NCBI GenBank assembly: GCA_947165755.1
Contig: CAMVBR010000006.1
Coordinates: 1 to 33,816, forward strand
DNA: 33,816 bases
Origin: an uncultured Clostridia bacterium
Lineage (GTDB): Bacteria > Bacillota > Clostridia > Oscillospirales > Acutalibacteraceae
Direction: 5' to 3'
Shown here: piece by piece, positions 1 through 11,169 of the stretch
Layout: each line of letters opens with the position of its first letter
Numbering within the stretch: position 1 is the first letter of the stretch
Made by a program: the position numbers and the translations under genes
The notes under the pieces: model-generated
What the model was told of the DNA's origin: nothing
The model's input: only the letters and a program-made list of their open reading frames with translations
Database searches by the model: none

Positions 1-272
1 CTTTTTAAGGCCGCCTCCATGTAAATGCGCAGATTGTCTTTTACCTTTTCCTGTATCTCACGCAGATGCGAGATGTAATCCAGCACGCTGTCGTCCCTGT
101 CCGCGGAGCAAGGACCAATGATCAGCAGAAAACGGTCGTCTTTTCCCGTAAAAATATTCTCGATCTCTTTGGCGCGTCTTGCTACGGTCTCATGCATCTC
201 TGCGGTTAAGGGATACATCTCCTTTACCTCTTTGGGTATCGTCAGTTTCCGTTCAAAAACCATATTCATCAT
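1..272 (-). CDS. aroF: 3-deoxy-7-phosphoheptulonate (DAHP) synthase, type I, N-terminal part (truncated by window edge)
   Basis: Reverse complement of 1-272 translates MMNMVFERKLTIPKEVKEMYPLTAEMHETVARRAKEIENIFTGKDDRFLLIIGPCSADRDDSVLDYISHLREIQEKVKDNLRIYMEAALK; the IGPCSADR motif is typical of DAHP synthases; AGGAG SD upstream; last gene of the aro operon in this window. Confidence 0.88.
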   Translation of the reverse strand, partial: MMNMVFERKLTIPKEVKEMYPLTAEMHETVARRAKEIENIFTGKDDRFLLIIGPCSADRDDSVLDYISHLREIQEKVKDNLRIYMEAALK

Positions 273-285
273 GGCGCATTTCTCC

Positions 286-1143
286 TTACTTTTTATCAAA
301 CAGCGCTCTTCTGGCGGTGGAAAGGCGCATTTTTGTTTTCAACGCATCGATATCTTCTCTTTCCAATATATCATGTATCTCATTCAATTCATCGGTAAAC
401 GTTCTGATTTCATCCAAAAGCGCATCTTTGTTCAGCAGAAACAGCTCGCTCCACATATTCTCATTGATGCGGGCAATGCGCGTCAGATCCCGGAAGGAAT
501 CGCCGGTATAATCCACAAGATGCTCGCTCTTGGAGCAGGTCATCAAACACATGGCAATGATATGCGTAAGCTGCGAAACGAACCCGATCATCTCATCGTG
601 CGCTTTGGGCGGCAGCGCCGAGATCCTTGCGAAATCCAGCGTTTCTCCGATCCCCTTGCATACTTCGATCGCATTGAACGTATTCGCGTCGGTTGGCACA
701 ACGATATAGTTCGCATCGAGAAAGATCCGATCGTCGCTGTTTTGAACCCCGTAAACCTCTTTACCGGCCATGGGGTGCGCAGCAATAAACTCCACGTCTT
801 TTCTCAGCATGCTTTGGATCTCGTATACCACGGGCGCTTTCACGCCGGTCACGTCGGAAATCACGGCCCCGCGCTTGAAAAAGCGCTGATTTTCTCCGAC
901 CCATTCCAAAAACACGTGTGGGTACAATGCAAAAATACAAAGATCCGCCTCCCCGACCAAAGCCGCGTCAACCGTACTTGCACCCTTCTCTATCAACCCC
1001 TTATCAAGGGCAAATCCGATCGCATTTTGGTCGGTATCGATCGCACTCACGTGGTATCCTCTCTTTGAGAACCCCATCGCGTAGCTGCCCCCGATCAACC
1101 CCAAACCGACGATCAGTATGCGCATATTTTTATCCAGCTTCAT
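286..1143 (-). CDS. tyrA: prephenate dehydrogenase
   Basis: N-terminal NAD-binding motif ILIVGLGLIGGSYAMGF; internal AAHPMAGKEVYGVQNS and HDEMIGFVSQLTHIIA; aro operon context. Confidence 0.93.
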   Translation of the reverse strand: MKLDKNMRILIVGLGLIGGSYAMGFSKRGYHVSAIDTDQNAIGFALDKGLIEKGASTVDAALVGEADLCIFALYPHVFLEWVGENQRFFKRGAVISDVTGVKAPVVYEIQSMLRKDVEFIAAHPMAGKEVYGVQNSDDRIFLDANYIVVPTDANTFNAIEVCKGIGETLDFARISALPPKAHDEMIGFVSQLTHIIAMCLMTCSKSEHLVDYTGDSFRDLTRIARINENMWSELFLLNKDALLDEIRTFTDELNEIHDILEREDIDALKTKMRLSTARRALFDKK

Positions 1144-2344
1144 AATTGATTTTCACCTTCAGTTTTTCAAGATCCTCAAAAAATCCTGGATAGCTTTTCT
1201 TCACAGCTTCCGCGCCGTCGATCTCACCGCCGTACCGCGTACACAATACGGCAAGGCTCATTACGATCCGGTGATCGTTATGTCCCCATAAAACAGCGTT
1301 CGGGCTGTGCGTACAGGATGGCGGAATTTCGATTCGGTCTTCTCCGAGTTCCACGTTCACTCCGAATTTGGCAAGCTCCTGGGCCATGGCGGCGCCGCGA
1401 TCGCTCTCTTTTAAGGCCAATCGCTTCGTTCCCGTGAATACTCCTCCGTAGTGCATCGCGGCAAACGCAAACAGGACCGGCGCAAGATCGGGACAGTCTG
1501 AAATATCACAGCTTGAATACTCTTTCTTCAGCCGCGCGAAGTACTGTATACATACCTTATCGCCCTGCAGGGAATCTTCGCGAACACCGGAAATTTCCAT
1601 CGGCGCGCCGCACTCCCGCAAGGCATACAGGAACGCCGCGTTGGACCAATCCCCTTCATTCTCCGTTTCAACGGCTTTATAGGCCTGCCGACCCTTTACA
1701 TATAAAGCATTACCGCATATCCACCTTACAGAAATCCCAAATACAGAGAGAACTGCCACCGTGATATCGATATACGGCTTGCTTTCCACGCTACCGGTCA
1801 GGCGGATCTCGCTATCGCCGTCCAAAAGCGGCAGCGCAAATAACAACCCCGATACGAACTGGCTGCTGATATTCCCCGGGAATGTAAATATGCCCGAACG
1901 CAGCATCCCGTTTACAGTGATCGCCTCGCTTGTTTGCTCGAATTCAATCTCCTGCGAACGGCAAATTGCTTCGTAAACCTGCATCGGGCGCCGTAAAAGC
2001 GTTTCGCTCCCCTGCAGCACAACGCGCCGCCCGGCAAGCATACACAGCGGCATGAAAAACCGCATCGTACTTCCGCACTCGCGGCATGGGAGCGGTTCGT
2101 TGATTTTAAAACTCTTTCCGCCGACCCCATATACCGTAAGCGCGCTTTTTTTGTAATCCGTTTTTGCTCCAAGCGCATGCACACAGTCTATCGTTGCGCA
2201 TATATCGTCAGACAAAGATACATTTTTTATCGTGCTCTCTCCGTCTGCGAGCGCCGCGCACAGGATCAGCCGATGCGCATAGCTTTTGGAAGGCGGCGCC
2301 TGAATTCCGCCGGACGGCACAGAAGGTTCAATTTTTACTATCAT
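1130..2344 (-). CDS. aroA: 3-phosphoshikimate 1-carboxyvinyltransferase (EPSP synthase)
   Basis: PPSKSYAHRLILCAALADG, ECGSTMRFFMPL, DCPDLAPVLFAFAA and NDHRIVMSLAVL motifs. Confidence 0.95.
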   Translation of the reverse strand: MIVKIEPSVPSGGIQAPPSKSYAHRLILCAALADGESTIKNVSLSDDICATIDCVHALGAKTDYKKSALTVYGVGGKSFKINEPLPCRECGSTMRFFMPLCMLAGRRVVLQGSETLLRRPMQVYEAICRSQEIEFEQTSEAITVNGMLRSGIFTFPGNISSQFVSGLLFALPLLDGDSEIRLTGSVESKPYIDITVAVLSVFGISVRWICGNALYVKGRQAYKAVETENEGDWSNAAFLYALRECGAPMEISGVREDSLQGDKVCIQYFARLKKEYSSCDISDCPDLAPVLFAFAAMHYGGVFTGTKRLALKESDRGAAMAQELAKFGVNVELGEDRIEIPPSCTHSPNAVLWGHNDHRIVMSLAVLCTRYGGEIDGAEAVKKSYPGFFEDLEKLKVKINYEAG

Positions 2345-2774
2345 GATCGTAATTCTTTTTCAATAAGTCGATAGCTTCCAGATACCCCTTCACTCCGTGG
2401 CCCTTGATCGTTTTCACGCAAGCGGAACGGATATAACTGATTTTTCTGAAGGGTTCCCGCAGATCGGGATCGGAAATATGCACTTCCACCGCAGGGATCG
2501 CAACCGCCTTTAATGCGTCGAGCAGAGCAATGCTGGTATGCGTATACGCGCCGGGATTGATCACGATGCCGTCCGCATTTCCGTAAGCGGCCTGGATCCT
2601 GTCCACAAGATCCCCCTCATGATTCGATTGATACAATTCAACATCCACGTCAACTTTGTTTGCATGGTTCCTGATCTGTTCGCACAAGCCTTCATACGTG
2701 CAGCTTCCGTAGATCTCCGGCTCACGGATTCCAAGCATATTCAGATTCGGGCCGTTTATTACCAAAATCTTCAA
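2328..2774 (-). CDS. aroQ: type II 3-dehydroquinate dehydratase
   Basis: MKILVINGPNLNMLGIREPEIYG, IVINPGAYTHTSIALLDAL and EVHISDP motifs. Confidence 0.95.
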   Translation of the reverse strand: MKILVINGPNLNMLGIREPEIYGSCTYEGLCEQIRNHANKVDVDVELYQSNHEGDLVDRIQAAYGNADGIVINPGAYTHTSIALLDALKAVAIPAVEVHISDPDLREPFRKISYIRSACVKTIKGHGVKGYLEAIDLLKKNYDHDSKN

Positions 2775-4009
2775 TTAAAATGCCTTCTTTCTATTTCATA
2801 CGCAACTGCGGCAACGGCCGTATTATCATTGATAACGTCGTCCGCCGTATTGCAATAAATATCATACCGTTCACGGTATCTGTTAAATATAGCCTCTTTC
2901 GACAAGGCCAAGGGCCGATCGCCCGTGGGCGTCAACAATTCAGGGGAACGGTCAAGAAAATAAATGCGGCCGTTCATTTTCAATGCATCGGTATTTTCAA
3001 AATTCAGCACCGCGCCTCCGCCGGTAGAAATCACACAACCGGAGCGCGCAGAGATCTCTCTTATGATTTCCGTTTCAATTTTCCGGAATGCCGTTTCCCC
3101 ATGCAAACGGAAGATATCGGGAATCGAAACGCCGGTCTTATTCACGATACATTCGTCGGTATCAATAAACGGTCTGTGAAGCTTTTCGGAAAGAAGCTTG
3201 CCGATCGTCGTTTTTCCGCAGCCGGGCATACCGGTCAAAACGATATTCTGCTTTGCATTAAAAATATCTCTGAAGATCCGATCGGCTGTTCCCTCTTCCG
3301 CTTCGGTCTCCATAAAGATCTCATACGCCCTTACCGCCTGTGAAACGAGCATATACAATCCGGTTTGCGCTTGTAAACCTATTTTAGCCGCCGATGCGGT
3401 AAGCAACGTATGCAGAGGATTATACACTGCGTCCAATACCGCCTCCAAAGCAGGAAAAGCCTTTACGTCTATTGCGGACTCAAATAGATTCGGATACATA
3501 CCTACAGGCGTTGTATTGATTATGATTTGTATATCCGCGTGTTTTTTCAGCGCTTCCGCATAGGTGATCGCTCCGGGCTGCGCTCTTCTGCTTACCTTGT
3601 AAACCTCTGACGCCCCGAGCCGGGATGCTGTATACGCAGCGGTTTTTGAAGTGCCTCCGGTCCCGAGGATGAGCACCTTCTTCCCGTTAAGGGAGATTTT
3701 TTCTTTTTCGATGAGCGCCTGCATACCGAACGCATCCGTATTATACCCATACAGTTTTCCGTTTCTGTTTACAACGGTATTCACCGCGCCGATGGCAGCG
3801 GCGGTCTCGTCTGCGGCGTCAAGGTAAGGGATCACGGTTTGCTTATAAGGAATGGTCACGTTGATTGCGATAAAATCGCGGCGGAGCATAAAAGGACCGA
3901 CTTGGTCCGGCGCCAATTCCTTCAGCTCGTATGCATAAGATCCTATTTTTTCATGTATTTCCTTTGAAAAGCTGTGCGGCAGACGTTCTCCGATACAGCC
4001 GTATTTCAT
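2771..4009 (-). CDS. aroE-aroK: bifunctional shikimate dehydrogenase / shikimate kinase (AroE-AroK fusion)
   Basis: N-terminal AroE (YGCIGERLPHSFSKEIH, NVTIPYKQTVIPYLD, NTDAFGMQALI) continuous with AroK (IVLTGMPGCGKTTIGKLLSEKL, FIDTDECI, STGGGAVL). Likely start at 4009, overlapping the aroC stop (ATGA), rather than the ORF-track 4063. Confidence 0.93.
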   Translation of the reverse strand: MKYGCIGERLPHSFSKEIHEKIGSYAYELKELAPDQVGPFMLRRDFIAINVTIPYKQTVIPYLDAADETAAAIGAVNTVVNRNGKLYGYNTDAFGMQALIEKEKISLNGKKVLILGTGGTSKTAAYTASRLGASEVYKVSRRAQPGAITYAEALKKHADIQIIINTTPVGMYPNLFESAIDVKAFPALEAVLDAVYNPLHTLLTASAAKIGLQAQTGLYMLVSQAVRAYEIFMETEAEEGTADRIFRDIFNAKQNIVLTGMPGCGKTTIGKLLSEKLHRPFIDTDECIVNKTGVSIPDIFRLHGETAFRKIETEIIREISARSGCVISTGGGAVLNFENTDALKMNGRIYFLDRSPELLTPTGDRPLALSKEAIFNRYRERYDIYCNTADDVINDNTAVAAVAYEIERRHFN

Positions 4010-5106
4010 ATTATGTCGCCTCCCAGCCAATCCGTACCGTAACGAAGCGCAAGCTGATCGCAAAGAACAAGCGCCGTAATGCTATCCACAACAACACGCG
4101 CCCTATGCAATATTGCAGGGTCGTGCCGCCCCCTGATTTCCAGAGTTGCATCTTCCTTCGTGCCGGTGTTTACCGTTTGCTGCGGCTTTGCAATGGATGG
4201 GGTCGGTTTTACGGCGCAGCGGAAGATAACGGGCATACCGTTGGAGATTCCGCCGTTGACGCCGCCGTTATGATTGGTCGTTGTTCTAACACCGTCATTC
4301 GCCCAAACGATTGGGTCATTCGCTTCACTGCCACGCATCTCCGCGAATCCAAAGCCTGCGCCGAACTCCACGCCTTTTATGGCCGGAATGCTGAACAAGC
4401 CATGGGACAAAACGCTTTCCAACGAATCGAACCACGGCTCCCCTACGCCGGCAGGCAAACCGATCACAGCCGTTTCCAAAACGCCGCCAACACTGTCCTT
4501 TTCCAAGGCCGCGGCTTCGATCGCCGTTTTCATTTTCTCCCCCGCTTCTTCACAAATCACAGGAAAGGGGCTTTCATTCAATAATGTTATCTCGTTTTTC
4601 AAATCAGAAAAAGCATGATCCTGAATACCGGCGCAGTTCTTTATATGCGTTCCGATCGCAATACCCTTTTTACGCAATGCCGAAATCACGATCGCCCCTG
4701 CCGCCACCAAGGGCGCAGTCAGCCTGCCGCTGAAATGCCCGCCGCCGCGATAGTCCTCATACCCGTGATACTTAATATGCGCCGTTAAATCCGCATGGCC
4801 GGGACGGGGCAAAAACCGCACGTCCTCATAATCCGCGCTTTTTATATCTTTGTTCGGAAGAAGAATGCAAATCGGCGCGCCTGTGGTTATTTTATTGAAT
4901 ACACCGCTTACGATCTGAAACGAATCCTGCTCCTGCCTTGCAGTGGAGATCCTCCCCTGCGGTCTTCTGAGAAAAAGCTGATGCGCAATAAAATCACCGT
5001 CGATCGTAATCCCCGGCGCTATGCCGTCAAGCACGACGCCGATCGCATCTCCGTGGCTCTCTCCGAATAGCGTAATGCTTACACTGTTGCCAAACGTATT
5101 CTTCAT
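4006..5106 (-). CDS. aroC: chorismate synthase
   Basis: GNSVSITLFGESHGDAIGVVLDGIAPG, RRPQGRISTARQEQD, RPGHADLTAHIKYHGYEDYRGGGHFSGRLTAPLVAAGA. Confidence 0.96.
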   Translation of the reverse strand: MKNTFGNSVSITLFGESHGDAIGVVLDGIAPGITIDGDFIAHQLFLRRPQGRISTARQEQDSFQIVSGVFNKITTGAPICILLPNKDIKSADYEDVRFLPRPGHADLTAHIKYHGYEDYRGGGHFSGRLTAPLVAAGAIVISALRKKGIAIGTHIKNCAGIQDHAFSDLKNEITLLNESPFPVICEEAGEKMKTAIEAAALEKDSVGGVLETAVIGLPAGVGEPWFDSLESVLSHGLFSIPAIKGVEFGAGFGFAEMRGSEANDPIVWANDGVRTTTNHNGGVNGGISNGMPVIFRCAVKPTPSIAKPQQTVNTGTKEDATLEIRGRHDPAILHRARVVVDSITALVLCDQLALRYGTDWLGGDII

Positions 5107-5110
5107 GCAA

Positions 5111-6124
5111 TTACCTCTTTATTATGCATTGCAGCCGATCCATAAGCTCTTCCGGCTGCATGATCGAACTGACATACGCACCGGGAGTATTCACAGTAGT
5201 TACCGCAATGCCGCTGCTTTCACTTTTCTTATCATGTTTCATCGCCTGCATGATCACGGCTTCATCCATTTCGATTTCCGTTGGAAGCGAAAGCTTTTCT
5301 AAAGCTTTTTTTACTCTCGGGCGCAGCTGCGTACCGCACATTGGCAGCATTCCCAACGCAACGCATTCGCCGTGGTATAATCCGTGCAAATCCTCTTCAC
5401 TTTCGATCGCGTGGCCGATCGTGTGACCGAAATTCAGGATCTTCCGAAGCCCCTGTTCCTTTTCGTCCTGCTCCACAACACTTTTCTTTATTTCGATCGA
5501 CCGAGTGATCACCGTATCCATATTTTCATAGACGTCCCCATGCTCAAACAAATCAAATAAAGCGCCGTCGGACGTCAACGACATTTTCAAGGCCTCCGCA
5601 AGCCCGTTTGAAATATGCCGCACAGGCAGAGTTTTCAGCACGTCCGGATCGATGAGAACGGCTTTCGGTTGATAAAAAGCCCCAACGATATTTTTTATGC
5701 CGTTCAGATTCACGGCTGTTTTCCCGCCGATCGAAGAATCCACCTGCGAAAGAACTGTAGTGGGAACGTTATAGAAATCCACGCCGCGCATATAACTTGC
5801 AGCGGTAAATCCTGCGAGGTCTCCCACCACGCCGCCGCCCACGGCGACGACGCAATCTTTTCGGGTAAACCCCAGCTCCAGCATTTTTGAGAGCAGCGCT
5901 TCAAACTGAAAAATACTTTTGCTCCGCTCCCCCTGCGGGATCGTATATACGTGCCCCTGCGCACATTGTTTTAATAATGTGTCCGCATAAACCGGGGGAA
6001 CGCCGGTGTCTGTCACAATAAAAACTTTTCTGTTCAGATCCAGGATCTCTCCTGCGCGGAAAAGGATCCCGTGCGAGAAGCAAATATCATACCCGTTCTG
6101 ATTTAAAGCCACATGAATCACCAT
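5111..6124 (-). CDS. aroB: 3-dehydroquinate synthase
   Basis: AVGGGVVGDLAGFTAASYMRGVDFYNVPTTVLSQVDSSIGGKTAVNLNGIKNIVGAFYQP; NFGHTIGHAIES. Confidence 0.96.
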   Translation of the reverse strand: MVIHVALNQNGYDICFSHGILFRAGEILDLNRKVFIVTDTGVPPVYADTLLKQCAQGHVYTIPQGERSKSIFQFEALLSKMLELGFTRKDCVVAVGGGVVGDLAGFTAASYMRGVDFYNVPTTVLSQVDSSIGGKTAVNLNGIKNIVGAFYQPKAVLIDPDVLKTLPVRHISNGLAEALKMSLTSDGALFDLFEHGDVYENMDTVITRSIEIKKSVVEQDEKEQGLRKILNFGHTIGHAIESEEDLHGLYHGECVALGMLPMCGTQLRPRVKKALEKLSLPTEIEMDEAVIMQAMKHDKKSESSGIAVTTVNTPGAYVSSIMQPEELMDRLQCIIKR

Positions 6125-6136
6125 ATTAAGCCTCGT

Positions 6137-7231
6137 TCATTCTGAAAGATTGATCTCTTTCGCGTAATGTCCTACGATCTTGAGCTGCTCACAGCATACG
6201 GAAAGCTCGCGCAGCATGCGTTTTCCCTCATCGCTGTTCTGGTCGCCCTTTGCCTCCACGTAAAAATAATACTGCCACGGAATATCTTTTACAGGACGGC
6301 TTCTGAGCACGCGCATATCAAAGCCGTGCGCCGAAATAATGTTCACCGCTTTGGCCAGCGCGCCAACGTCATTCTTTACCGTAAACAATAGAATAAAATG
6401 ATTCTCTGCCCCCACATATGTATTCTCGGAACGCGAGAACACGGCGAAACGGGTGGTATTGACAGACCGTTCATTGATATCATGATCCAATATCTGCAAG
6501 CCGTAAAGCTGAGCGGTTTCTTTGCTTGCGATAGCCGCAATATGCACGTCGTTCGACGAGGCAACCATTTTTGCGGCTGCTGCGGTATTGGAAGCCTGTA
6601 TTGCCTCATACCCGTTTTCTTTAATGTAAGCAGCGCACTGCATAAGGGCCTGCGGATGGCTCACTACTTTTTGAACGTCCGATAAATTCGCATTCGTGAT
6701 ACCAAGCAGATGGTGAATCACCGGCAGCGAATATACGCCGTTGATATACAGGGGGCCTTTGAACATCAGATCCACAACCTGCCCCACCTCACCGGCGGTA
6801 CTGTTCTCAATCGGCAGCACGCAGCAGTCACACTCCCCGTTCCGAACGGAAAAATAGGCCGAATCAAAATCGACGTAAGAAATGAGATTGCCCGATGGAA
6901 ATATCTTTTTTGCGGCAATTCCGGCGAAAGCGCCTTCCACGCCGCAGAACGCGATTTTCATTCCTTCCATCAACCGGCTCTGATACCGTTTGGAAATATC
7001 CATAACTGCCTGCAGAAAACTGACGTAATACGAGGTATAAACGGTATTATTCAGCATAGCGCTGTTTTTTTCAATAAGAACAGATTCTCTTTGCGGATCA
7101 AATACAGGCAAACCGTTTTCCGTTTTATACCGTGCAATTATTTCCGCCGCGTTCAGCCGGGATTCAAACAACAAAGCCATTTCCCGGTCGATTCTGTCGA
7201 TTTCCTGCCTTGCCTTATCCAAGTCACTCAT
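6137..7231 (-). CDS. pheA: bifunctional chorismate mutase / prephenate dehydratase (P-protein) with C-terminal ACT domain
   Basis: N-terminal chorismate mutase helix (DLDKARQEIDRIDREMALLFESRL), PDT core (VLPIENSTAGEVGQVVDLM, VSHPQALMQCAAYI, NTTRFAVFSR), ACT region; AGGAGG SD. Confidence 0.94.
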   Translation of the reverse strand: MSDLDKARQEIDRIDREMALLFESRLNAAEIIARYKTENGLPVFDPQRESVLIEKNSAMLNNTVYTSYYVSFLQAVMDISKRYQSRLMEGMKIAFCGVEGAFAGIAAKKIFPSGNLISYVDFDSAYFSVRNGECDCCVLPIENSTAGEVGQVVDLMFKGPLYINGVYSLPVIHHLLGITNANLSDVQKVVSHPQALMQCAAYIKENGYEAIQASNTAAAAKMVASSNDVHIAAIASKETAQLYGLQILDHDINERSVNTTRFAVFSRSENTYVGAENHFILLFTVKNDVGALAKAVNIISAHGFDMRVLRSRPVKDIPWQYYFYVEAKGDQNSDEGKRMLRELSVCCEQLKIVGHYAKEINLSE

Positions 7232-7250: not shown

Positions 7251-7289
7251 AAAGAAAAACCACCGCATTTATGAAAAAATAAGCGGTGG
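7251..7289 (-). terminator. rho-independent attenuator terminator in the pheA leader
   Basis: CCACCGC-TTATTTTTTCATAAAT-GCGGTGG then TTTTTCTTT on the minus strand. Confidence 0.85.
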
Positions 7290-7319
7290 AAAAAACACTA
7301 TTCAGATCCGAAGGGGTCT

Positions 7320-7379
7320 TTATAATGTAAAATCCATCGCGATATTAAAATAGAAGTAAAAGCTGTGCTGAAGATGCAT
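7320..7379 (-). CDS. putative 19-aa attenuator leader peptide MHLQHSFYFYFNIAMDFTL
   Basis: ATG CAT CTT CAG CAC AGC TTT TAC TTC TAT TTT AAT ATC GCG ATG GAT TTT ACA TTA TAA; Phe/Tyr run placed upstream of the attenuator. SD spacing about 11 nt (long); an overlapping ORF MKYASSAQLLLLF from 7386 has spacing of about 4 nt. Confidence 0.65.
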   Translation of the reverse strand: MHLQHSFYFYFNIAMDFTL

Positions 7380-7498
7380 ATTTCATGCGGCTTCCTTTCA
7401 TAAGTTATTTTGATTGTATTATACATAAATCATTTTGTCAACTTAAAATTAATTAATTTATATAATTTACATTATTTTTTTCAATCTTTATGTCTCAC

Positions 7499-8942: not shown

Positions 8943-9417
8943 ACTTTAAGTGATCGCTCCAAATGCGAACAAGTCGGTCAAAAGAAACGCCGGCGTTTGC
9001 AGGCGAAGTAGACGGCAAACAAATCGCAGGCTTCCCCACAGCGGGCAACAAGTATTTATTGTAGTATTTTTCAGCGGTTTTCCCGTTTACAATAATCCTT
9101 TTGATCGGCGCGCGCTCCAGGATCCATGAAATATCGTTCGGCTGCACGTTTCTGATGGACGCATCGGAGCTTCCGTCAATATCACAGCTTGCGATCACAT
9201 CCCAAAGCGCTATTCTATGGGTCAGAAGAAACGCCTTCTTCTCTTCCGTATTCTTCAAAGGTTCAGCGTTGTAAATAACCGAAAGCATTCTCCAAAACCG
9301 GTTTTGCGGGTGCCCATAGAAAAATGCGGCTTCTCTGGATTTTACCGAAGGAAAACTGCCGAGAATCAGTATCTCGCTGTTATTATTAAATACGGGAGGA
9401 ATATTATGTTCAATCAT
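8941..9417 (-). CDS. DNA-deoxyinosine glycosylase / uracil-DNA glycosylase superfamily
   Basis: ILILGSFPSVKSREAAFFYGHPQNRFWRML, ALWDVIASCDIDGSSDASI, LPSTSPANAG: pattern of the hypoxanthine-DNA glycosylase family. Confidence 0.85.
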   Translation of the reverse strand: MIEHNIPPVFNNNSEILILGSFPSVKSREAAFFYGHPQNRFWRMLSVIYNAEPLKNTEEKKAFLLTHRIALWDVIASCDIDGSSDASIRNVQPNDISWILERAPIKRIIVNGKTAEKYYNKYLLPAVGKPAICLPSTSPANAGVSFDRLVRIWSDHLK

Positions 9418-10814
9418 CAGTTGATCTGCAAATGAGAAAGCTCAAAGAAATCACGGTATTTTGTAAAAATGAATTTCAGTTCTCTGCATTTTATCGGTTT
9501 GATATTGCAGATCCGCTTATATCCCACGGTAGTACCCTCATAAAGGGTTTTCCACTTTCCTTTTTCGTTCAGGTACAGGATTTCAAACGCTTCAATATGC
9601 TGACCGTTCGCAATATTCTCGGAAAGAACGATCTTATCAAACGGCTCGTCTTCTTTGAACCGAACATGCAGCACAGGCGTTCTGTCTTTTTCCTCCGGCC
9701 GCCAGAATGCGTTCATTGCCGTTGTTTTTATATTTTTCGCTATTGCGGGATCCTTTTCAGACGATGCCGAGATTTCGACGCGGTCATCAACAATATTGCC
9801 GGAGAACATAAGCTTGATATCTTTGCCGAATGCCGTAAGGATCTGTGTATCCACGTCGTCGATCACCCCGCGCTTATTCGGAGACAGACCGAGCATCAGG
9901 CAGGAATTATTACCTACGGAATTAAAATACAGCCCAAGCAGCTTATCTTTTGTTTTTACCGAATATTTGTCGTCCTCATCAAAGAACCAGTGCTTCCGGA
10001 TCGGCAAACTGACTTCACAGGGATACCAAATAAACTTTTCCTGCCCCTTGATCGCCTTCCGGCTGCCGATATCAAGCGCCATCATATCCCCTGCTTTTTT
10101 CGGCGCGGGCTCGGATGTACCGTCTTCATATACGCCGTAATAAGCGGGAACCGAACTCCATTCTTCGCTGCGGGTAACACCGTTTTCATTTCCGCTCCAA
10201 CGCACGTCAGGGCCCATAAAGGAAATCACGGCATTCGGGGCAAGGGTACGGATCGTTTGATAATACCGCCCCCAGTCATACTTCTGCACGCGTGTTTCAT
10301 TGCTGCCGCAGATGCCGTCGAGCCACACGCAGAAAACGTCGCCGTAGTTTGTAAGCAGCTCCGTCAGCAAATTACAGAAATAATCATCGTACGCAACGCC
10401 TGTTCCGTAAGTTTTCTCGTGCATATCCCAAGGGGAAACGTATATACCGAATTTCAAGCCGAACTTTCGGCAGGAATCGGCAACCATACGAACCAGGTCG
10501 CCCTCGCCGTCCATCCAATTGGAATTTTTCACGGAGTAATCCGTATGGGCAGTCGGCCATAAGCAAAAGCCGTCGTAATGCTTGCAGGTAAATACAAGAC
10601 CTCGCATGCCTGCGTTTACCGCCAGCTCGCACCAGCTGTCCGTATCCATATTTTCAGGCCAAAAAACAGAAGGCGATGTGTAACCACCGCCGAACTTTGC
10701 AGAAGTAAACACGGGAAGCCCGTAGCTTACAAGCGCATAGAATTCTGTTTTCTGCCATTCGATCTGCCGCGCAGAAGGTCTGGCGCTGTTTGCAAAACGA
10801 TAAGAATCATCCAT
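9417..10814 (-). CDS. alpha-L-fucosidase, GH29-like
   Basis: FTCKHYDGFCLWPTAHTDYSVKNSNW, LKFGIYVSPWDMHEKTYG, VWLDGICGSN (nucleophile-like Asp); C-terminal carbohydrate-binding-like region. Start set at 10814 (MDDSYRFANS), just after the preceding stop codon. Confidence 0.85.
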   Translation of the reverse strand: MDDSYRFANSARPSARQIEWQKTEFYALVSYGLPVFTSAKFGGGYTSPSVFWPENMDTDSWCELAVNAGMRGLVFTCKHYDGFCLWPTAHTDYSVKNSNWMDGEGDLVRMVADSCRKFGLKFGIYVSPWDMHEKTYGTGVAYDDYFCNLLTELLTNYGDVFCVWLDGICGSNETRVQKYDWGRYYQTIRTLAPNAVISFMGPDVRWSGNENGVTRSEEWSSVPAYYGVYEDGTSEPAPKKAGDMMALDIGSRKAIKGQEKFIWYPCEVSLPIRKHWFFDEDDKYSVKTKDKLLGLYFNSVGNNSCLMLGLSPNKRGVIDDVDTQILTAFGKDIKLMFSGNIVDDRVEISASSEKDPAIAKNIKTTAMNAFWRPEEKDRTPVLHVRFKEDEPFDKIVLSENIANGQHIEAFEILYLNEKGKWKTLYEGTTVGYKRICNIKPIKCRELKFIFTKYRDFFELSHLQIN

Positions 10815-10815
10815 A

Positions 10816-11169
10816 TCAGTCGTGATTTGTGGCAACGATATCCGCGCCGGTGCCGAGAATGTTCGGAATGATCACCTGACCGAGTTTCACAGGCGCTTCA
10901 ACGGTAACGGAATTGATCGCCTTCATGCAGTCAAAGATCATGCTTTTCGGGATCGGTTTGTTGGATTTGACCGGAACCACGGGATAGATCCCGCCGTTCA
11001 CTTTTACGCTGGTTGCGAGTGAACGTGTGGGATTCACAATTTCCGACCGGGCATAAGCATCGCCGCGCTTGCAGGTGTTTCCCGTAACAGAAAGTACCCC
11101 CGTTTCATCATATTCCACAGTGATCGCGCAGCCCAAGGGGCAGGCAACGCACGTAAGATCTCTTTTCAT
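10816..11169 (-). CDS. DUF1667 family protein (small Cys-containing protein linked to GlpA/GlpB-like oxidoreductases)
   Basis: MKRDLTCVACPLGCAITVEYDE...GNTCKRGDAYARSEIVNPTRSLATSVKVNGG...PVVPVKSNKPIPKSMIFDCM. Confidence 0.88.
   Translation of the reverse strand: MKRDLTCVACPLGCAITVEYDETGVLSVTGNTCKRGDAYARSEIVNPTRSLATSVKVNGGIYPVVPVKSNKPIPKSMIFDCMKAINSVTVEAPVKLGQVIIPNILGTGADIVATNHD

Follow-up and report, generated by a model that had tools for sequence, protein, structure and literature searches.

The window, that is, the whole stretch of 33,816 nucleotides that was analysed, is an entire contig of a fragmented assembly that is 83.5% complete. Its minus strand carries an operon in the order pheA-aroB-aroC-aroE/K-aroQ-aroA-tyrA-aroF, whose genes overlap or have only a few nucleotides between them. 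The first gene, pheA (6137..7231), encodes a fused chorismate mutase/prephenate dehydratase with a weak ACT match. It is followed by aroB (5111..6124), aroC (4006..5106), an aroE-aroK fusion (2771..4063), aroQ encoding a type II dehydroquinase (2328..2774), aroA (1130..2344) and tyrA (286..1143). The last gene, aroF for DAHP synthase, is truncated by the contig end and is present with its 5′ part (1..285). Pfam and NCBIfam agree with the gene identities proposed in an earlier sequence-only reading of this DNA, except that aroF was recognized by eye from its translation (...DDRFLLIIGPCSADRDDSVLDYI...). Elsewhere in the window, positions 9417-10835 of the minus strand encode an alpha-L-fucosidase-like protein with an F5/8 type C domain, which adjoins a DNA-deoxyinosine glycosylase.

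A compact leader precedes pheA on the minus strand. Its promoter (7413..7441, 11/12 matches) consists of the −35 hexamer TTGACA (7441-7436) and the −10 hexamer TACAAT (7418-7413) with a spacer of 17 nt, and the leader transcript is expected to start near 7405. By eye, similar −35/−10 pairs are also located upstream of the leader in many relatives. The Shine-Dalgarno sequence (SD) AAAGGAAG lies at 7391..7398, and an SD of the GAAAGGA type is retained in most relatives. Downstream of it, an ORF running from the ATG at 7379 to the TAA at 7320 (7320..7379) encodes the leader peptide MHLQHSFYFYFNIAMDFTL in a conserved frame rich in Phe and Tyr (F/Y). The control codons, TTT TAC TTC TAT TTT (FYFYF), match the products of the operon, which carries pheA and tyrA together with the shikimate genes. 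The leader therefore has a short, SD-preceded ORF with a run of end-product codons, as an attenuator should.

The putative switch itself consists of three strands that can form two alternative hairpins. Region 2, GCGATGGA (7333..7340), encodes A-M-D/E and forms the 5′ strand of an antiterminator, as compensatory changes with region 3 indicate. Folding places an inner hairpin at 7295..7328 (ACATTAT 7328-7322 with ATAGTGT 7301-7295; z −5.6 in the window), and the stop codon TAA of the leader overlaps the end of its 5′ arm. Region 3, TCCACCGC (7283..7290), can pair either with region 2, giving the antiterminator, or with region 4, the 3′ arm GCGGTGG (7266-7260), giving the intrinsic terminator CCACCGC...GCGGTGG plus T-run (7251..7290, −12.5 kcal/mol). 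The T-run (7259-7251) lies 20 nt upstream of the pheA ATG at 7231, which is preceded by AGGAGG. The promoter, the leader ORF and the strong terminator were thus all found where the sequence-only reading had put them, and re-reading of regions 2 and 3 gave the same 7 of 8 pairs, with one A.C mismatch as the exception.

The ATG at 7379 is 13 nt from the SD, which is a suboptimal spacing, and initiation there may be further lowered by an upstream out-of-frame ATG at 7386. The latter opens an overlapping ORF, MKYASSAQLLLLF (7386-7345, minus strand), and raises the question of which frame is the true leader. Being only 6 nt from the AGGA of AAAGGAAG as against 13 nt for its competitor, ATG 7386 could start a leader whose LLLL codons sense leucine, and a comparable overlapping ATG at locus L061 opens MSNVLRRQIRFLLLLF. 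However, the out-of-frame ORF at L063 reads MYVYRHI followed by a stop, most relatives have an SD-spaced ATG in the F/Y frame only, conservation is confined to the F/Y frame, and sensing of leucine would make no sense for an aromatic operon. We consider leucine sensing extremely unlikely and take the F/Y frame as the leader ORF. In both L061 and L063, an in-frame stop follows the overlapping ATG shortly before the F/Y-frame ATG.

How readily does such an ORF arise by chance? When the AT-rich 180-nt window leader was shuffled by dinucleotides, 104 of 3000 shuffles (3.5%) contained an ORF in which 5 or more of 7 codons were F/Y, and the F/Y ORF of the window taken alone is weak evidence. Since a single F/Y ORF is unremarkable, conservation was made the deciding question, for which the window was compared with the 80 closest pheA loci from named genomes, making 81 in all. 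Of the 81 pheA loci, 29 carry an ATG ORF that follows an SD and has F/Y in at least 5 of 7 codons, against a shuffled expectation of 0.1 loci on average and 1 at most (40 rounds, 81 loci), and the next best residue pair scores 8 loci. These numbers bear directly on the idea that the terminator is constitutive but leaky and that T/A-rich codons in an AT-rich promoter region would give Phe and Tyr by chance. Such an idea is in keeping with the 3.5% of shuffles, but it is hardly credible given the 29 loci where 0.1 are expected, the three-strand covariation and the second genomic copy before a tyrosine-type transporter, both described below.

Besides the window, 29 of the 80 named comparison loci, most of them in rumen and gut Clostridia MAGs, have the complete element, always as an F/Y-rich leader peptide followed by GCGATGGA, a hairpin, TCCACCGC and a terminator. 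The sequence-only reading had asked whether orthologous leaders keep the F/Y codon runs and the alternative pairing, and whether relatives conserve the leader ORF at all; in the comparison, ORF and pairing turned out to be conserved jointly, both being kept at these 29 loci. A covariance model built from 28 leaders supplied a 30th locus, L133, with its leader placed further upstream, which brings the total to 31/81 with the window. The pheA leaders of the same genus encode MFYAGKSGFYFYYFNNAMEHYIIEDFRN (G024), MFANSHNNYFYFYFNNAMEHYIITDLKN (G023), MFTGTYNGFYFYYFNKAMEHYIITDFSC (G007), MFSKLYYFKLNIAAETNIMREQIL (G009) and MFAFCNPAAYSYFFMNSDGTSGNA (G025). Across 30 loci, no feature is as consistent as the F/Y run, while the codons used and the flanking peptide vary.

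Thirty-five of the 81 pheA loci are without any leader. Leaders occur mainly where pheA is the first gene of its operon, and several leaderless loci have a same-strand gene within ~50 nt upstream of pheA. On the PheA tree, the presence of a leader changes 7 times, compared with 24 times in shuffles; the leader is clustered and thus mostly inherited with pheA. A search of 74 sources (410 kb) that contained the window but no other training locus recovered, apart from the window itself, nothing but the pheA leader of L133 (E 2.5e-11), L133 being the close sister of row L124 in the training set. Within the genus, the model detects the element in 7 of 26 genomes, of which G005 carries it solely before a transporter. 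In a sample of 396 genomes from the order, it is detected in 6, which belong to three families; strict filters make this latter count a lower bound.

When the 28 leaders were given to RNAalifold with no structure, it picked the helix between regions 2 and 3, the very antiterminator that had been drawn by eye. The pairing of the earlier reading thus stands, whereas its extent of 8 nt does not, since folding gives a long hairpin reaching from GCGATGGA to TCCACCGC. Helix 2:3 is paired to 96.4% with both-side changes at three pairs, and helix 3:4 to 86.4% with both-side changes at seven pairs. For both structures, none of 500 shuffles attained the observed covariation score, and pairing fell to 35-63% when the partner was shifted by 1-3 columns. 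Changes extend through all three strands in the clade L068-L085 (GCGATTGA / TCAACCGC / GCGGTTA, G-C to U-A), in L071-L072 (GTGATGGA / TCCACCAC / GTGGTG, C-G to U-A in L071) and in L139, where ACGATGG / TCATCGT / GCGATGA contain several changes. Because members of one clade are related, the independent covariation events in helix 2:3 number only about three. Nearly all leaders retain the A.C mismatch at position four of region 2 (shifted by one in L065 and L091), and it would hold the antiterminator weaker than the terminator.

Folding was performed with the region 3/4 boundaries anchored on the CCACC motif. All of the 30 leaders fold as the long region 2-region 3 hairpin when cut just after region 3. 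The leader ORF ends within the 5′ arm of this antiterminator. The hairpin interior varies in sequence among clades with the pairing kept, and alone folds better than shuffled sequence in most leaders. A terminator thus lies between the leader ORF and the first gene, and the antiterminator and the terminator exclude each other. Once region 4 is part of the equilibrium partition function, most leaders favour the terminator even when a stalled ribosome is included, and the model consequently requires kinetic, co-transcriptional folding. A protector hairpin is not conserved, the upstream pairing of region 2 being 3.1 bp versus 3.8 bp with shuffled upstream sequence. Without a ribosome, the window leader folds as the antiterminator before region 4 appears, and the no-ribosome state is mixed across leaders (14/30).

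A long, conserved antiterminator that forms without a ribosome in the window leader might point to a translation-independent RNA switch, in which a small molecule, a tRNA or a protein chooses the hairpin and the F/Y codons are incidental. Against this, the 30 loci share the F/Y run more consistently than anything else although codons and peptide vary, no T-box or other Rfam match is present at the leader, and the hairpin interior has no conserved sequence able to act as a binding pocket. We regard such a switch as very unlikely. The conserved leader frame, the exclusive pairings and the covariation all support the attenuator proposed in the sequence-only reading, and the leader is, with high probability, a ribosome-mediated transcription attenuator that senses charged tRNA-Phe and tRNA-Tyr and controls the aromatic operon.

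We infer the translation of the leader, the stalling, its timing and the physiological response from the sequence as follows. RNA polymerase would start at ~7405, and a ribosome would follow on the leader ORF. If Phe or Tyr is short, the ribosome would stall within the FYFYF run and leave free region 2, GCGATGGA, which lies 21 nt beyond the first control codon. The free region 2 would then pair with region 3 over the long hairpin before region 4 is made, in which case the terminator would be blocked and pheA to aroF would be transcribed. If both Phe and Tyr are ample, the ribosome would reach the stop codon and cover region 2 and/or the inner hairpin, regions 3 and 4 would pair, and transcription would stop. 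From the first codon of the F/Y run to region 2 the distance is 21-33 nt in all leaders, so that a stalled ribosome would leave region 2 free and one further on would cover it.

The stop codon is located 9 to 54 nt past the start of region 2 (18 nt in the window and 9 nt in a short-leader clade), and in many relatives about 24-54 nt past region 2. A ribosome terminating in the window or in the short-leader clade would sit on region 2, and in the other relatives it would break the inner hairpin via its 5′ arm; both events would favour the terminator. The masking of region 2 that was originally envisaged fits the window and the clade with the 9-nt stop, but not the many relatives in which the stop is too far downstream. 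As no protector hairpin is conserved, an untranslated leader may show more readthrough instead of less, and with a mixed no-ribosome fold the effect of blocking translation is a prediction. The start-codon mutation suggested earlier as a test is therefore non-discriminating as stated.

A search of the source genome with the model returned the pheA leader (E 9e-13) and a weak second site at G000:C83:3230-3349 (L149, E 0.11). There, a leader peptide MNFINNNHSYIYYFTR and then a terminator precede a gene for a TrpX-like substrate-binding lipoprotein. The pairing of GCGACGG with CCGCCGC at this site adds another compensatory change (U-A to C-G) and retains the A.C mismatch. The congener G005 has the leader MRRCSWYFIFTCAMDRCPTPQNPRF before a TrpX-like gene as well (G005:C19:15625-15758, L155; model E 2.3e-5). 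Both TrpX-like proteins score under the NCBIfam TrpX cut-off, and both align with the tyrosine-binding CD0873 (6HNI), of which Glu-263 and Tyr-279 are tied to tyrosine selectivity (PMC6816091). With columns aligned by eye, they have Glu and Tyr at these positions, where the Trp binder SP1069 differs, which predicts tyrosine as the substrate of the ABC transporter. Of 24 transporter loci in the genus, only those of this genome and G005 have such a leader.

Several known identities were tried and rejected for the pheA leader. Rfam gave no match there at the gathering threshold, and the Phe leader was absent among matches with E up to 5; the best-E match at a permissive threshold, GcvB, scored 23.9 bits against a cut-off of 42 and was taken as chance. 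The classical enterobacterial Phe leader was dismissed, with neither recognition by the Rfam model nor a protector (1:2) hairpin, and so was a TRAP-regulated leader, as a run of G/UAG triplets was not found by eye. Nor is the leader a T-box riboswitch: an RF00230 search of the source genome gave seven T-boxes, none of them at the leader. Two of these T-boxes, G000:C61:3471-3715 (L142) and G000:C288:3307-3550 (L144), lie before a pheS-like gene and another TrpX-like gene (genes assigned by eye).

The enterobacterial PheL and PheM are short leader peptides rich in Phe codons, PheL standing before pheA. Like these pheA and pheST leaders (PheL being the Phe leader of Rfam), the Clostridia element offers a choice between antiterminator and terminator. 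It differs from them in that it mixes Tyr with Phe, has no Rfam match or conserved protector hairpin, and would control the entire shikimate-to-Phe/Tyr operon. Firmicutes commonly use T-boxes, which sense uncharged tRNA, whereas the pheA leader would sense by codons. With T-boxes at pheS-like and trpX-like genes of the same genome, two ways of sensing aromatic aminoacyl-tRNA would coexist. In Acholeplasma, the uORFC-13-1 motif before aroF (24 sequences) is a proposed uORF attenuator with at least one Phe codon (PMC8632094). It is likewise a predicted Phe-codon uORF adjoining a terminator before an aromatic-pathway gene outside Proteobacteria, but the element described here has an F/Y codon run, stands before pheA in Clostridia and has a defined antiterminator. 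Leader-peptide attenuation in Firmicutes is also represented by His leaders predicted in Eubacteriales, Erysipelotrichales and the Bacillus cereus group (PMC9413887) and by the branched-chain ilv-leu leader of Staphylococcus aureus (PMC5794164), which concern other amino acids and for which no shared RNA element is reported.

A description of the element was not found in the literature searched, where most subscription journals lay outside the scope. The kind of attenuation is classical, while the element, its clade and a regulon of operon plus transporter appear to be undescribed. Codon-sensing attenuation, the textbook enterobacterial mechanism, probably serves a whole aromatic operon in Clostridia too, and unculturable gut bacteria could be searched for Phe/Tyr genes with the element as an RNA query.

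A second kind of F/Y leader (...FTFARFYAGFYCYA..., terminator GCGGTTCTGT...ACAGAGCCGC) precedes pheA at ~15 of the 80 named loci, in other Clostridia as well as in rumen Treponema, and gives no match to the first covariance model. This structurally unrelated design is seen at L077, L078, L082, L084, L088, L092 and L093, and further at L098, L108, L127, L130, L135 and L137. Its peptide motif is ARFYAGFYCY, of which AGF is retained in most despite nucleotide differences. The two RNA designs are unrelated yet follow one F/Y codon logic ahead of pheA, and through them the convergent evolution of attenuators becomes testable. A broader picture, to which we give slightly less than even chances, would be a hitherto undescribed family of two-state Phe/Tyr ribosome attenuators in gut and rumen Clostridia, protector-less such that an untranslated leader reads through, with a small regulon of the operon and tyrosine uptake beside T-boxes, and with a second, independent F/Y leader in sister lineages and rumen Treponema.

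In two rumen Treponema/Spirochaetaceae MAGs (L080:2277-2465 and L081), the second design stands before pheA-aroB-aroC, which suggests either that operon and leader were transferred from Clostridia or that the contigs were misbinned. In another family of the order, L013 (G049:C61) has a leader MFFESCYFYFYFTRRCPYSF upstream of pheA with a third type of terminator.
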